Shown: one piece after another, positions 14,284 to 18,805 of the stretch
Layout of the letters: each line of letters opens with the position of its first letter
Position numbering within the stretch: the first letter of the stretch is position 1
Assembly (NCBI GenBank): GCA_017541975.1
Contig: JAFXYB010000006.1
Span: forward strand, 1 to 55,634
From: a bacterium
GTDB taxonomy: Bacteria; Bacillota_I; Bacilli_A; Izemoplasmatales; UBA1188
Direction: 5' to 3'
Length of the DNA: 55,634 nt
Made by a program: the position numbers and the translations under genes
Notes under the pieces: model-generated
Database searches by the model: none
Told to the model about the DNA's origin: nothing
The model's input: the letters and a program-made list of their open reading frames with translations, nothing else

Positions 14284-15618
14284 ATGAAATTATATAATAC
14301 CTATACAAATAAAATAGAAGAATTAAAACCAATTAAGGAAAATACAGTAACTATCTACTACTGTGGACCTACAGTATATAACTATATTCATATTGGAAAT
14401 GCTAGACCAATAGTATTTTTTGATACGCTTAAAAAATACTTAGAACATAAAGGCTATAAAGTAATAATGGCTTCTAATTTTACCGACATCAATGAAAAAA
14501 TCCTCAAACAATCAGAAATCGAAGGCATCTCAGAGATGGAGGTTGCCGAAAAATATATCAACGCATATATGAGTGATGTCAGATTCTTAAATGCTGATGA
14601 TTCTTTCTTAAAACCACGTGTCACAGAAACTATTCCAGAAATAATTGATTTTATCAAAGGATTAATCGATGTAGGTGCTGCATATAAGAGTGGTGGTGAT
14701 GTATATTATCGTGTTTCATCTTTAAAAAACTATGGACAATTATCTAATAGAAAAACAGATGAACTCATTCAAGGAGCAAGAGTAGAAGTTAGAGAAGAAA
14801 AAGAATCTGGCCTTGACTTTGCCCTTTGGAAAGAATTCCCACAAGGAATCAATTATCCATCTCCATGGTCAGTAGGACGTCCTGGTTGGCATACTGAGTG
14901 CTGCGTAATGATTCATAAATTATTTGGTGGTATGATTGATATTCATGGTGGTGGTGCTGATTTGATCTTCCCACATCATGAAAATGAAATAGCTCAAAAT
15001 GAATCACTCTATCACAATAGAATTGCCAATATTTGGGTTCACAACGGAAGACTCAATTTCGGTCAAGAAAAGATGAGTAAATCTTTAGGTAATGTCATCT
15101 GGACAAAAGATCTTAAATGTGATCCAAGGGCATTCCGTCTTCTCCTTTTAAAGGCATCTTATAGAAACGTTGTATCATATACTGATGAACTTCAAGATCA
15201 AGCCAGTGTTGAATTCGATAAAATCAATACTGCATTCCATAAATTATTCTTATATCTAGATGTAAATAACTTATTTGATGATAGCGTCAATACTGAAGAA
15301 TCAAATAACTTCATGAAGAAGTTTGATGATGCTAATGACGAAGATATGAACACTCCAAATGGCGTCACTGTAATCAACGATATAGTAAAAGAAGTTAATC
15401 TAGAATTAAGAGGCAAAAAGAATCCAGAAAGATTAGTATCTCTATATAATACATTAAAAGAGATGCTCTATGTTTACGGCCTTGATAGTAAACTTGAAAG
15501 AATGAATGAAGAGAATAGAAAACTCTATAATGATTGGAATCTCGCAAGACAAAATAAAGATTTTGAAAAGGCTGATGAACTTAGAAAACAGTTAATAGAT
15601 AGTGGCGTAGAGTTATGA
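14284..15618 (+). CDS. cysS: Cysteinyl-tRNA synthetase
   Basis: This 444-residue class I synthetase charges tRNA-Cys. It has the HIGN form of the HIGH motif (HIGNARP near residue 37), KMSKS near 265, and Zn ligands in YYCGPTVYN, GWHTECCVM and FPHHENE. The C-terminal helical domain is slightly short. The stop is TGA inside ATGA, where the next gene starts, so mrnC is translationally coupled. This is one of only two TGA stops in the window. The cysS-mrnC-rlmB order is that of Bacillus. Confidence 0.96.
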   Translation: MKLYNTYTNKIEELKPIKENTVTIYYCGPTVYNYIHIGNARPIVFFDTLKKYLEHKGYKVIMASNFTDINEKILKQSEIEGISEMEVAEKYINAYMSDVRFLNADDSFLKPRVTETIPEIIDFIKGLIDVGAAYKSGGDVYYRVSSLKNYGQLSNRKTDELIQGARVEVREEKESGLDFALWKEFPQGINYPSPWSVGRPGWHTECCVMIHKLFGGMIDIHGGGADLIFPHHENEIAQNESLYHNRIANIWVHNGRLNFGQEKMSKSLGNVIWTKDLKCDPRAFRLLLLKASYRNVVSYTDELQDQASVEFDKINTAFHKLFLYLDVNNLFDDSVNTEESNNFMKKFDDANDEDMNTPNGVTVINDIVKEVNLELRGKKNPERLVSLYNTLKEMLYVYGLDSKLERMNEENRKLYNDWNLARQNKDFEKADELRKQLIDSGVEL

Positions 15619-16001
15619 TACAAGAAAATGGATTAACTTTGGCATACATTGGCGATGCGATCTATGAACTCAAAATAAGAGAATATCTTTTGACACAAAA
15701 CTATACAAAAGTAAACGATCTTCATAAGCACGCAATAAAGTATACAAGTGCCATTAGTCAAGCACAAATAATAGACTATTTAATGCCAAATTTAACTGAA
15801 GAAGAAATCGAATATTATAAGAGAGGAAGAAACACCGGTGGTACTCATAAACCTAAAAATGCCTCTTTAAATGACTACAGAAAAGCCACAGGCTTTGAAG
15901 CATTAATAGGATACCTCTATTTGATAAAAAATCTCGATAGAATGGATGAATTAATCAATAAATCTATAAATTATATAAATTCAAAAAATGACTACAATTA
16001 G
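15615..16001 (+). CDS. mrnC: Mini-ribonuclease III
   Basis: This 128-residue protein is the catalytic RNase III domain without a double-stranded-RNA-binding domain. In Bacillus it matures the ends of 23S rRNA. The motif LAYIGDAIYELKIREY carries the acidic catalytic residues, followed by YKRGRNTGGTHKPKN and a second acidic helix (TGFEALIGYLYL). The start overlaps the cysS stop by four bases, and the position between cysS and rlmB matches the conserved Bacilli order. Confidence 0.92.
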   Translation: MIQENGLTLAYIGDAIYELKIREYLLTQNYTKVNDLHKHAIKYTSAISQAQIIDYLMPNLTEEEIEYYKRGRNTGGTHKPKNASLNDYRKATGFEALIGYLYLIKNLDRMDELINKSINYINSKNDYN

Positions 16002-16011
16002 GCATTTTCTA

Positions 16012-16020
16012 TGATATAAT
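16012..16020 (+). promoter_or_regulatory. Extended -10 promoter before rlmB
   Basis: TGATATAAT lies 26 bases before the rlmB start, between mrnC and rlmB, and could give an internal transcript; no clear -35 box is present. Confidence 0.42.
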
Positions 16021-16045
16021 TATAAATGTAAGGAAGAAATAATTT

Positions 16046-16750
16046 ATGTTGTTAAAAGGAAAAAACGTTTCTAGAGAAACAATTTATTCATCTAAAAATA
16101 TAAAGAAAATTATCATCAAAGAGTCTTTCAATGATGAAGTTTTAACATACATGAAGAAAAACCATATAAATTATACCATTCTTCCTGATAAGGATTTCAA
16201 TATGAGATATAAAGATGCACAAGGAATTGTCGTAGAAACAGGCGATTATCAGTATGCATCTTTTGACGAATGTTTAAAAAATACAACCAATAATTCTCTA
16301 TGTGTTATTTTAGATTCAATTGAAGATCCACAGAACTTTGGAAATATCATTCGTTCTTTTGAAGCCCTTGGTGGATCATTTATAATTATTCCTAAAAATC
16401 GTTCAATAGAAGTAAATGAAACTGTCGCAAAAGTATCAGCTGGTGCCTATGCGCACGTTAAGATCACTCAAGTTACAAACCTCAATCAAGCTATTTCAAA
16501 ACTCAAAGATAATGGTTATTGGGTGATGGGAACTGATATGGATGGCGATACAGACTATGATAATGTTAGAGTAGATATGCCAATTGCCCTTATCATCGGT
16601 TCTGAAGGTTTTGGTATGAGCAAGCTAATCAAACAAAACTGTGATTATCTATTAAGGATACCTATGGTTGGCAAAATCAATAGTTTAAATGCATCTATCT
16701 CTTGTGCGATTGTCATGTCTGATATAGTATCTAGGAGGAGAAAGCTATAA
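16046..16750 (+). CDS. rlmB: 23S rRNA guanosine-2'-O-methyltransferase RlmB
   Basis: This 234-residue SPOUT enzyme methylates the ribose of a guanosine in the 23S peptidyl-transferase region (G2251 in E. coli). An N-terminal RNA-binding domain (LLKGKNVSRETI, residues ~1-75) precedes the catalytic domain with motif 1 DSIEDPQNFGNIIRS, motif 2 GSEGFGMS and motif 3 INSLNASISCAIVM. Assignment to RlmB rests on these motifs and its place between mrnC and the sigma factor (yacO in Bacillus). Its last codons contain the AGGAGG that serves the next gene, and its TAA overlaps that gene's apparent ATA start. Confidence 0.9.
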   Translation: MLLKGKNVSRETIYSSKNIKKIIIKESFNDEVLTYMKKNHINYTILPDKDFNMRYKDAQGIVVETGDYQYASFDECLKNTTNNSLCVILDSIEDPQNFGNIIRSFEALGGSFIIIPKNRSIEVNETVAKVSAGAYAHVKITQVTNLNQAISKLKDNGYWVMGTDMDGDTDYDNVRVDMPIALIIGSEGFGMSKLIKQNCDYLLRIPMVGKINSLNASISCAIVMSDIVSRRRKL

Positions 16751-17289
16751 ACACATTTGGATTTAATGATTATGAACTCTTGTATATGATTCAAGATGGT
16801 GACTCTCTAGCTCTAGACATCATCTATAAAAAATACATCAATCTTATTTATAAAAAAATAAAAGAATTCAACTTTAAATCCGATTATGAAGACATTTTGC
16901 AAGAATGTCTAATAGTATTAAACAATTCAATAGAAAAATATAAAGATGGTCCAGTTCCTTTTGTTGCATTCTTTAGTAGGAATCTTCAAAACAAATTATC
17001 ATCAATCTACACCACAAAAAAGAAAAACAAATTGTTAGTTTCTGATAGTGTTGGAGTAATGATGGACTCATCTTTTTCTTTTTTTGCTGATTACGACATA
17101 AACGAAAAACTTTTTAAAGGACTAACACCACTCGAAAGAAAACTTATTGAACTCAGGTTCCTTGAAAAAAAAGAAGTATCATTCATTCTTAAAAACTATG
17201 AGATGAAAAGAAGTACCTATTATTACATAGTAAAAAAAGCCCTAAACACAATAAGAAAAAACATCACAAAATACCAATTATCATTCTAA
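16747..17289 (+). CDS. Sigma-70 family factor in the sigH position, probable AUA start
   Basis: This 180-residue protein has a sigma region 2 (DYELLYMIQDGDSLALDIIY, then SDYEDILQECLIVL) and a C-terminal helix-turn-helix-like region 4 (LTPLERKLIELRFL, MKRSTYYYIVKKAL). It lies where Bacillus has sigH, before rpmG-secE-nusG. Homology begins upstream of the first ordinary start codon (TTG 16780), and the frame opens after a TAG at 16732 with no ATG, GTG or TTG before 16780. The only well-placed start is ATA at 16747, eight bases after AGGAGG (16733-16738) and overlapping the rlmB stop as ATAA. I therefore start it there; 16780 is the conservative alternative. Whether it controls competence, early sporulation or stress genes, as SigH-like factors do, is unknown. 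Confidence 0.72.
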   Translation: MNTFGFNDYELLYMIQDGDSLALDIIYKKYINLIYKKIKEFNFKSDYEDILQECLIVLNNSIEKYKDGPVPFVAFFSRNLQNKLSSIYTTKKKNKLLVSDSVGVMMDSSFSFFADYDINEKLFKGLTPLERKLIELRFLEKKEVSFILKNYEMKRSTYYYIVKKALNTIRKNITKYQLSF

Positions 17290-17345
17290 AATCTAAAACA
17301 AAAACACATCTTGTTTATTTGTTAAATAACCTAGTAAAAAAATTG

Positions 17346-17373
17346 TTTACATTTTTTGATTATTTGATATAAT
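17346..17373 (+). promoter_or_regulatory. Promoter P1 of rpmG-secE-nusG
   Basis: TTTACA (17346-17351), a 16-base spacer and an extended -10, TGATATAAT (ending 17373). The transcript would begin almost at a small hairpin, CATATTT-TTG-AAATATG (17381-17397), followed by TCTTTTTT. Confidence 0.62.
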
Positions 17374-17446
17374 GATATTGCATATTTTTGAAATATGTCT
17401 TTTTTAAGATGGAAATGTCAACACGATAAACTAAAATCTTAAATGC

Positions 17447-17475
17447 TTGACTTTTCAATTATATATCTTTAAAAT
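17447..17475 (+). promoter_or_regulatory. Promoter P2 of rpmG-secE-nusG
   Basis: TTGACT (17447-17452), a 17-base spacer and TAAAAT (17470-17475) make a second promoter, giving a leader of about 15 bases before rpmG. Confidence 0.62.
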
Positions 17476-17496
17476 ATATAAAATGGGACGACTAAT

Positions 17497-17643
17497 ATGC
17501 AAGAAAAAGTAATTCTAATTTGTGCAGAGTGTTCATCTCGCAATTATATAATGAATAAGAATAGCTTAAAAAAAGAAAGAATTGAAATTCTAAAGTTTTG
17601 TAAGCACTGTAATAAAAGGACTCTTCATAAAGAGTCAAAGTAA
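17497..17643 (+). CDS. rpmG: Ribosomal protein L33
   Basis: This 48-residue protein of the large subunit begins [17 protein letters not shown] and keeps both zinc knuckle pairs (CAEC and CKHC), so it is the zinc-dependent form. It sits between the sigma factor and secE as in Bacillus (rpmGB). The ribosome binding site is weak (GGGAC). Confidence 0.9.
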
Positions 17644-17656
17644 TGGGAGAAATCGT

Positions 17657-18190
17657 ATGGAAACTAAAGACAATGAGGCAAAAGAAGTAAAGAATGCCGA
17701 AAAAGAACAAACTAAAACTGAAAAAGTAACTAAAGAAGGTTCAATGTCAAGAGTATGGGCTTTCATCAAAGAAGAACATAAATTTGAAAACTGGTTATTA
17801 TTCGCTCTTGCACTAATTCTTCTAGTATTATCTTTATACATCTTACTAGCTGGTATTGGTAATGCAATGGGTGATGATGCAACTGTAAATACATTCGCAG
17901 ACACATTCTTTGATATTTCACTCTCAGGTTGGGGAATCTTCAATAAGCCTTGGAAAGTTATACTTATCTCTTCAATAATCGTAGTAGTATCATTAGGCTC
18001 AATCGTTTATTGTATTTGGCCAGTATGTGTTCCAAGTTTCAAAGAATTAAAGTTCGTCACATGGACAGATAAAAAGACTTTATTTGCTAATAGCTTAACT
18101 GTTATTTCATTCATTGTTTTCTTAACTGTTTTATTCTATCTATTCAACTTAGCTCTTGCACCTTTATTAAATTTAATATTTGGAGCATAA
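17657..18190 (+). CDS. secE: Preprotein translocase subunit SecE, enlarged
   Basis: SecE clamps SecY in the Sec translocon. The conserved part is C-terminal: an amphipathic helix (SFKELKFVTWTDKKTLFAN) and the last membrane helix (residues ~146-172). The protein has 177 residues, against about 60 in most Firmicutes: a charged Lys/Glu-rich segment (1-30) and two additional membrane helices (about 45-70 and 100-124) precede the core, giving three helices in all, as in E. coli SecE. The place between rpmG and nusG confirms identity. A GGGAGA ribosome binding site lies 9 bases before the ATG. Confidence 0.87.
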   Translation: METKDNEAKEVKNAEKEQTKTEKVTKEGSMSRVWAFIKEEHKFENWLLFALALILLVLSLYILLAGIGNAMGDDATVNTFADTFFDISLSGWGIFNKPWKVILISSIIVVVSLGSIVYCIWPVCVPSFKELKFVTWTDKKTLFANSLTVISFIVFLTVLFYLFNLALAPLLNLIFGA

Positions 18191-18191
18191 T

Positions 18192-18743
18192 ATGGCAGAA
18201 ATTAAGGGCGAAAAACTTTGGTATATCGTCCAGACTTATTCTGGAAAGGAAAATGCCGTTAAAGATAATTTAATTCAACGTATCACATCAATGGATATGG
18301 AAGGACAAATCTTCCAAGTTATCGTTCCAGAACAAATCGTTCAAGAAAAGAAAGAAGATGGAACAATCAAAGAAAAAGTTGTTAAGATCTTCCCAGGTTA
18401 TGTATTCATTGAGATGATTGATAATGAACAATCTTGGTGGGTTGTTAGAAATACACCACAAGTTACAGGTTTCTTAGGATCTGCTGGTAAGAAGACAAGA
18501 CCAGTTCCAGTTCCAGCTTATGAAATGGAACCAATTCTAAAAGCTTGCGGTATTACTAAAGCTCCAGAAATTTCTTATCATGTTGGTGATATCGTTACAG
18601 TAATAAGAGGCAATTTCAAAGACCGTGTTGGTAAAGTAGAAGCAATCGATCTTGATAAAATGGAGACAACTATTTCTATTGAAATGTTCGGTCGTACAAT
18701 CTCTGCCCCTGTTGCTGCAGATGATGTCGAAGTCGTTAATTAA
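18192..18743 (+). CDS. nusG: Transcription termination/antitermination factor NusG
   Basis: This 183-residue factor binds RNA polymerase and couples it to Rho or the ribosome. The N-terminal NGN domain (LWYIVQTYSGKENAV, FPGYVFIEM, NTPQVTGFLG) and C-terminal KOW domain (GDIVTVIRGNFKDRVGKVE) are complete. The ATG at 18192 is preferred to the TTG at 18180 because GGAG lies just before it and MAEIKGEKLWY fits the family. It starts one base after the secE stop and is closed by a terminator. Confidence 0.96.
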   Translation: MAEIKGEKLWYIVQTYSGKENAVKDNLIQRITSMDMEGQIFQVIVPEQIVQEKKEDGTIKEKVVKIFPGYVFIEMIDNEQSWWVVRNTPQVTGFLGSAGKKTRPVPVPAYEMEPILKACGITKAPEISYHVGDIVTVIRGNFKDRVGKVEAIDLDKMETTISIEMFGRTISAPVAADDVEVVN

Positions 18744-18749
18744 TTAATT

Positions 18750-18772
18750 GGTAGCCTAGGCTACCTTTTATT
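18750..18772 (+). terminator. Terminator after nusG
   Basis: GGTAGCCTAGGCTACC is a perfect 16-base palindrome (6-bp stem plus CTAG loop) followed by TTTTATTATT. Confidence 0.75.
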
Positions 18773-18805
18773 ATTATTAATATATATAAGTATAAAGGAG
18801 GTCTA

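Follow-up and report, generated by a model that had tools for sequence, protein, structure and literature searches.

A sigma factor gene in the sigH position

The window (the whole stretch of 55,634 nucleotides that was analysed) is contig C18 of a genome of 1.18 Mb in 29 contigs (G000). It carries a gene for an alternative sigma factor, and the features of the locus are collected in Table 1. The order cysS, mrnC-like gene, rlmB, sigma gene, L33-like gene, secE and nusG fits the sigH cluster of Bacilli, for which cysS-rnc-rlmB-orf1-sigH followed by the secE operon is given as the ancestral arrangement (PMC8046335). In the window, orf1 is missing between rlmB and the sigma gene.

Table 1. Features at the rlmB-sigma junction and in its surroundings (positions refer to the window).
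Feature	Position	Strand	Remarks
cysS	14284-15618		named by reading the translation
mini-RNase III gene (mrnC-like)	15615-16001		upstream of rlmB
rlmB, 23S rRNA 2'-O-methyltransferase	16046-16750	+	upstream neighbour; TIGR00186, 207.7 bits (cut-off 160.15)
in-frame TAG	16732-16734	+	bars initiation farther upstream in the sigma frame
Shine-Dalgarno sequence AGGAGG	16733-16738	+	inside the rlmB end; spacing 8 nt; duplex energy -10.9 kcal/mol
proposed AUA start codon	16747-16749	+	no other ATN codon from the in-frame TAG to NDYE
alternative sigma factor gene, sigH position	16747-17289	+	180 codons from the proposed AUA start; open frame and orthologs
rlmB stop TAA	16748-16750	+	2-nt overlap with the proposed start (ATAA)
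TTG, first canonical in-frame start codon	16780-16782	+	codon 12; rejected as start
L33-like small gene	between sigma gene and secE		named by reading the translation
secE	17657-18190	+	downstream neighbour, conserved Bacilli gene order; TIGR00964 and PF00584 above cut-off
nusG	18180-18743		named by reading the translation

Positions 16747-17289 encode a member of the sigma-70 family, an alternative sigma factor with both region 2 and region 4. A 25-row profile matched solved sigma factors (best E 1.5e-10). The AlphaFold model reached a mean pLDDT of 84.9, and a Foldseek search of the PDB with this model placed sigma factors at the top ranks (best E 9e-4) with whole-chain TM values below 0.5; region 2 alone superimposed on sigmaE with an rmsd of 2.1 Å and a TMt of 0.79-0.82. 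The protein scored 31.1 bits against TIGR02859 (spore_sigH, curated cut-off 294.8), 41.1 bits against TIGR02937 (sigma70-ECF, cut-off 42.9) and 20.9 bits against PF04542 (cut-off 24). As these curated cut-offs are missed, we refer to it as a sigma factor in the sigH position and not as SigH proper. An anti-sigma gene for the window sigma factor was not identified, and Rfam gave no match over 15500-18800 of the window. Between the sigma gene and L33/secE lies a promoter-like TTTACA-16-TATAAT with a TG before the -10 element (17346-17373, 11/12 positions), and sites of this kind are no commoner in the region than in shuffled sequences.

An AUA codon as the probable start

From the in-frame TAG to the NDYE motif, the sigma frame runs through the codons GAG GAG AAA GCT ATA AAC ACA TTT GGA TTT, an interval with zero NTG codons and one ATH codon. 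The preliminary description had located AGGAGG eight bases before the ATA at 16747, and these coordinates are right. Its proposal that the sigma factor appears to start at this AUA is supported by the lack of any NTG, by ATA being the sole ATN codon and by the alignment, in which the Ile of the ATA codon shares a column with Met1 of sister-family proteins. It had also described conserved sequence ahead of TTG 16780 with no ATG, GTG or TTG upstream in the frame; the TAG at 16732-16734 closes the frame to any earlier start. The N-terminus predicted from the AUA start reads M-NTFGFNDYELLYM, i.e. Met followed by NTFGF, and the N-terminal segment NTFGFNDYELLY separates this start from one at TTG 16780 or ATG 16786. 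ATA, ATT and ATC also encode Ile, and an ATH pattern by itself would be compatible with an internal Ile codon, so the start call rests on the upstream stop together with the lack of alternatives.

Conservation of the proposed start in the family of the window

The family of the window (f1) comprises seven genomes (G000-G006), and the start is readable in six of them; in G004 only the end of the sigma gene is present at a contig edge. The start codon is ATA in G000, G003, G005 and G002 and ATT in G001 and G006, and none of the six readable genomes has ATG, GTG or TTG at this place. The preliminary description had recommended comparing the junction in related strains, and this comparison returned ATA or ATT throughout and not a single ATGA. 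A sequencing or assembly error is rejected, as the same ATA occurs in G003 and G005, which are separate public records. All this holds at protein identities to the window sigma factor from 66% down to 30%. In G000, G003 and G001 there is a single ATH candidate between the upstream stop and the motif. The codons for NDYELL differ between the species by synonymous changes (e.g. GAT/GAC, CTC/TTA), and the segment ahead of the TTG therefore looks translated.

The distance of the rlmB stop from the start takes four values in f1. Counted from the first base of the start, the stop begins 1 nt downstream in G000, G003 and G005 (in G005 the junction is ATAG, with TAG instead of TAA as rlmB stop) and 2 nt downstream in G001 (junction TATTAA, start ATT), and in G002 and G006 it begins 5 nt and 8 nt upstream, respectively. 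The distances for L005 and L170, a locus of the second clade described below, were converted, having originally been measured to another ATH codon. This variation, which extends to the second clade, speaks against the earlier suggestion that ATAA is a coupled ATGA with one G-to-A change that kept the rlmB stop. Furthermore, TGA is an ordinary stop in G000, and ATGA would thus have worked at the junction.

Folding of the six f1 junctions gave z-scores of -0.84, -1.57, -0.42, 0.99, 0.18 and -3.24, and only G006 was notable. In this genome (L007, about 1440-1510), the rlmB end forms a strong predicted hairpin that takes in the SD of the sigma gene (z -3.24), reminiscent of the inverted repeat over the ribosome-binding site of Staphylococcus aureus sigH. 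A conserved RNA structure hiding the SD is therefore not a feature of the family. Taken together, the absence of NTG codons, a strong SD at normal distance and the conservation across relatives point to a conserved gene with a probable non-canonical start.

The sigma gene stands out within its genome

A strict screen covered 397,899 bases of G000, with 317 ORFs of 100 codons or more, and selected those that combine a strong SD and a non-canonical start without a canonical competitor. Only the sigma gene emerged with a near-cognate start behind a strong SD; one extra row was an ORF with neither a canonical codon nor an SD. The best canonical start among the 317 ORFs was ATG in 302, GTG in 10 and TTG in 4 cases. 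The strict screen missed infC because of a GTG inside the infC SD. A relaxed screen flagged 12 ORFs, namely infC, the ambiguous L099 and ten matches deeper in reading frames, and none of the eleven besides infC was convincing. It did not flag the sigma gene, as internal canonical codons compete there. In L099 (2501-5438, plus strand), AAGGAGG lies 4 nt before an ATA and an ATG follows nine bases, i.e. three codons, on, which leaves the start ambiguous.

The strict screen was also run on G164, a genome of genus g89 in family f13 (256 ORFs in 284,822 bases). Here, the sigma gene was flagged again, with ATT as start and an SD of -11.7 kcal/mol. The five other strict rows had neither a canonical start nor a strong SD and hence probably do not represent genes; in one row of looser quality, an ATG follows after two codons.

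A changed genetic code was ruled out, since TGA is a stop in both genomes, ending 26 of the 317 ORFs in G000 and 23 of the 256 in G164. A sigma-like match with an internal TGA (L200) turned out to be a short region-4-like reading frame, flanked by what we take to be ftsY-like and ffh-like genes. For an altered initiator tRNA, ARAGORN was run on 20 stretches plus the window, a partial sample that contained 9 tRNAs and none for Met or Ile.

infC is the classic gene with a non-canonical AUH start, and the gene for IF3 is present in all seven f1 genomes. After GAGGTG, infC shows ATT in G000 and G003 and ATA in G001, G002 and G004; the start in G006 looks like ATG, and infC of G005 is cut. This gives ATT or ATA after the infC SD in five of six readable f1 genomes, where an in-frame GTG lies inside the SD and the ATH start is an assignment by analogy. 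In g89, seven of eight infC loci were readable and all seven carry ATA behind GGAGGTG, a stretch that itself contains an in-frame ATG and GTG. Given the infC ATH starts in f1, the cells very likely initiate on such codons.

A second, distant clade with a probable non-canonical start

A class-wide pattern scan of 395 genomes pointed to G164 and its genus g89 as a second case. An ortholog is present in eight of the nine g89 genomes (G541 has distant matches only; L140 and L174 are near copies), and NTG is absent ahead of the motif in all eight. At the position five codons ahead of the motif, the codon is ATT in L139, L140, L169, L173 and L174, ATA in L170 and ATC in L171 and L172, and neighbouring ATH codons make the exact start ambiguous in five of them (L140, L170, L171, L172, L174). 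The rlmB stop begins 14-15 nt upstream of this codon and does not overlap the start. In four of the eight (L140, L171, L172, L174) it is a TAG in frame with the sigma gene that borders the SD.

Across f1 and g89, NTG codons are absent from the interval that runs from the upstream in-frame stop to the motif (14 of 14 genomes). The codon at the aligned start invariably opens with AT, and its third base is A, T or C and never G. G-rich SD-like runs also precede the start in f1 and g89 genomes other than G000 and G164. The picture differs in the other lineages, in which 157 of 159 assessed orthologs (76 of f2/f3, 83 of f13) have a canonical codon at the start, counted as any canonical codon within 15 codons before the motif, i.e. 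as presence and not as proof of use. A Fisher test on these counts yielded p = 8e-19, a value that ignores relatedness, with about two independent events.

The scan of the order matched 85 of 90 genomes; G017 was omitted, its match beginning at query residue 29 at a contig end. In f2/f3, 78 loci were read and 76 assessed (L093 and L095 were not located by the script), with ATG in 46, TTG in 19, GTG in 9 and none in 2. Family f13 matched in 145 genomes, and the 88 loci outside g89 that were read are the higher-scoring part of the list. A set of 28 gave 26 assessed loci (ATG 19, TTG 6, GTG 1; L162 and L164 skipped), and the other 60 gave 57 (ATG 45, GTG 7, TTG 5); L218, L256 and L259 were not located by the script and have a Met at or near the match start by eye. 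Two f2 loci, L020 (G018) and L074 (G029), have no ATG, GTG or TTG before NDFE and a CTG at the aligned start. L086, which has a GTG farther up in addition to a CTG in the aligned position, may be a similar case.

The sequences used for a tree of 66 sigma proteins began at the motif, which keeps the start codon from influencing the result. On this tree, f1 and g89 form separate clades with support values of 99/97 and 99/96. As lineages with canonical starts lie between them, the simplest explanation is two origins, and the non-canonical start probably arose twice.

Discussion

A start that probably limits the sigma factor

We consider it likely that the sigma gene starts at the near-cognate AUA at 16747, served by a strong SD in the rlmB end, and that this start is kept to limit the level of the sigma factor. 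A conserved, deliberately weak and SD-dependent start is the most likely interpretation for this sigma factor in the sigH position; its weak translation and its dependence on IF3 are what we infer. According to this model, the strong SD helix in the rlmB end would place the initiator tRNA on the near-cognate AUA. The AUH codon would be retained because it holds the sigma factor low. Judging from published systems, AUH would be rejected by IF3, so that a shortage of IF3 relative to 30S subunits should raise the yield; where the genes overlap, ribosomes coming off rlmB may contribute. In the two lineages, which would have acquired it independently, the AUH-started sigma gene might form a small IF3-gated set with infC, and IF3, in proportion to free 30S subunits, would directly determine an alternative transcription programme; we regard this extension as speculative and rather doubtful.

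A different interpretation is that the AUA is merely tolerated, the gene being barely needed and having drifted from ATG without regulatory meaning. The trait arose only about twice, so that the selection argument is backed by only about two independent origins, and the f1 sigma proteins evolve fast, as seen from their long branches on the tree. Competence genes may also be reduced: a ComEC domain was found in six of seven f1 genomes and a strong PF00437 ATPase (type II secretion/ComGA-like) in G006 only, and the DNA uptake machinery in the lineage of the window may be partial. However, the frame, the sigma motifs and a strong SD persist among proteins with 30-66% identity. Moreover, the third base of the start switches among A, T and C and never returns to ATG in 14 genomes, with ATG being the best canonical start of 302 of 317 ORFs in G000. 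Mere tolerance is therefore unlikely in our view.

Initiation at TTG 16780 or the nearby ATG 16786, with the AUA as part of an ordinary non-coding overlap, is very improbable, even though TTG and ATG are usable starts in G000. No SD serves the downstream starts, the best canonical candidate, ATG 16786, reaching -0.8 kcal/mol. The TTG sits within the conserved NDYELLYMIQDGD and falls into the middle of helix 1 (residues 8-16; pLDDT of the block about 92), and a downstream start would cut this helix and drop the N, D and E of the NDxE motif, which are invariant in 25 of 25 aligned proteins. In addition, G005 has the synonymous TTA in place of the TTG, and G002 and G006 lack it, their first canonical codon lying 19 and 30 codons, respectively, past the motif start, so the TTG has not been kept as a start. 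Synthesis as an RlmB extension by frameshifting or stop-codon readthrough, which the overlapping -1 frame of the window gene and the in-frame rlmB TAG of half the g89 genomes might suggest, is scarcely credible, since frame relation and stop position vary by species and no single recoding event fits all of them, whereas an SD with an ATH codon does.

The retention of AUA or AUU in relatives suggests that the cell deliberately makes little of the sigma factor, and it extends over one whole small family (f1) and one genus (g89), both of uncultured gut bacteria. Gene callers are blind to non-canonical starts, and such genes are annotated too short or missed; the usual annotation would here cut off the first helix of the sigma factor. 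The absence of NTG combined with a strong SD is a simple comparative test which can be run on any genome set. As a further sigma factor besides Streptomyces sigR whose non-canonical start is conserved, from an unrelated phylum and with two apparent origins, the case would suggest that alternative sigma factors are repeatedly held down by weak initiation.

Comparison with known systems

The closest parallel is sigR of Streptomyces, where a GTC start is repressed by IF3 and a canonical codon derepresses the regulon (Feeney et al., 2017, PMC5472188). Across species, the start is GTC in 32 of 34 and GTT in 2 of 34 cases (PMC5472188). Like the window gene, sigR encodes an alternative sigma factor and combines a conserved non-canonical start with a strong SD, mostly with one codon and a few variants. 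SigR differs in having an anti-sigma partner, in belonging to Actinobacteria and in its GTN codon, whereas the window gene belongs to Bacilli, occupies the sigH position downstream of rlmB and uses AUH codons.

Within the Bacilli, S. aureus starts ccpN and infC with AUA and cvfC1 with AUU, and two of these three starts were newly found and are conserved among relatives (PMC13009471). AUA and AUU starts there reach about 10% of AUG in poor medium, and the AUA of ccpN 30% in rich medium; the name sigH does not occur in the main text of that report (PMC13009471). In Listeria, start strength follows the order ATG > ATA > ATT (PMC13068326). The three S. aureus genes share with the window gene the class Bacilli, AUA or AUU codons and strong SDs, and their starts are low-yield; unlike the window gene, none of them encodes a sigma factor.

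The sigH gene of S. aureus presumably occupies the same genomic position as the sigma gene of the window. It has a TTG start and an inverted repeat that sequesters the ribosome-binding site, and translation is its limiting step (PMC3486894). S. aureus sigH thus pairs a weak canonical TTG with an RNA hairpin, in contrast to the family of the window with its AUH start and a notable hairpin in G006 only.

In Escherichia coli, infC and pcnB have AUU starts (cited in PMC5472188 and PMC13009471). They resemble the window gene in their near-cognate AUH start, which in the case of infC is discriminated by IF3, but neither encodes a sigma factor. When the start of E. coli rpoS was point-changed to ATA, RpoS was lowered (PMC12864459). 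Among titles and the opening parts of abstracts in the open-licence literature, we found no report of AUA or AUU as the sigH start in Bacilli. Sigma factors with a conserved non-AUG start are known in kind; what seems to be new is this gene, its codons and their apparent double origin.
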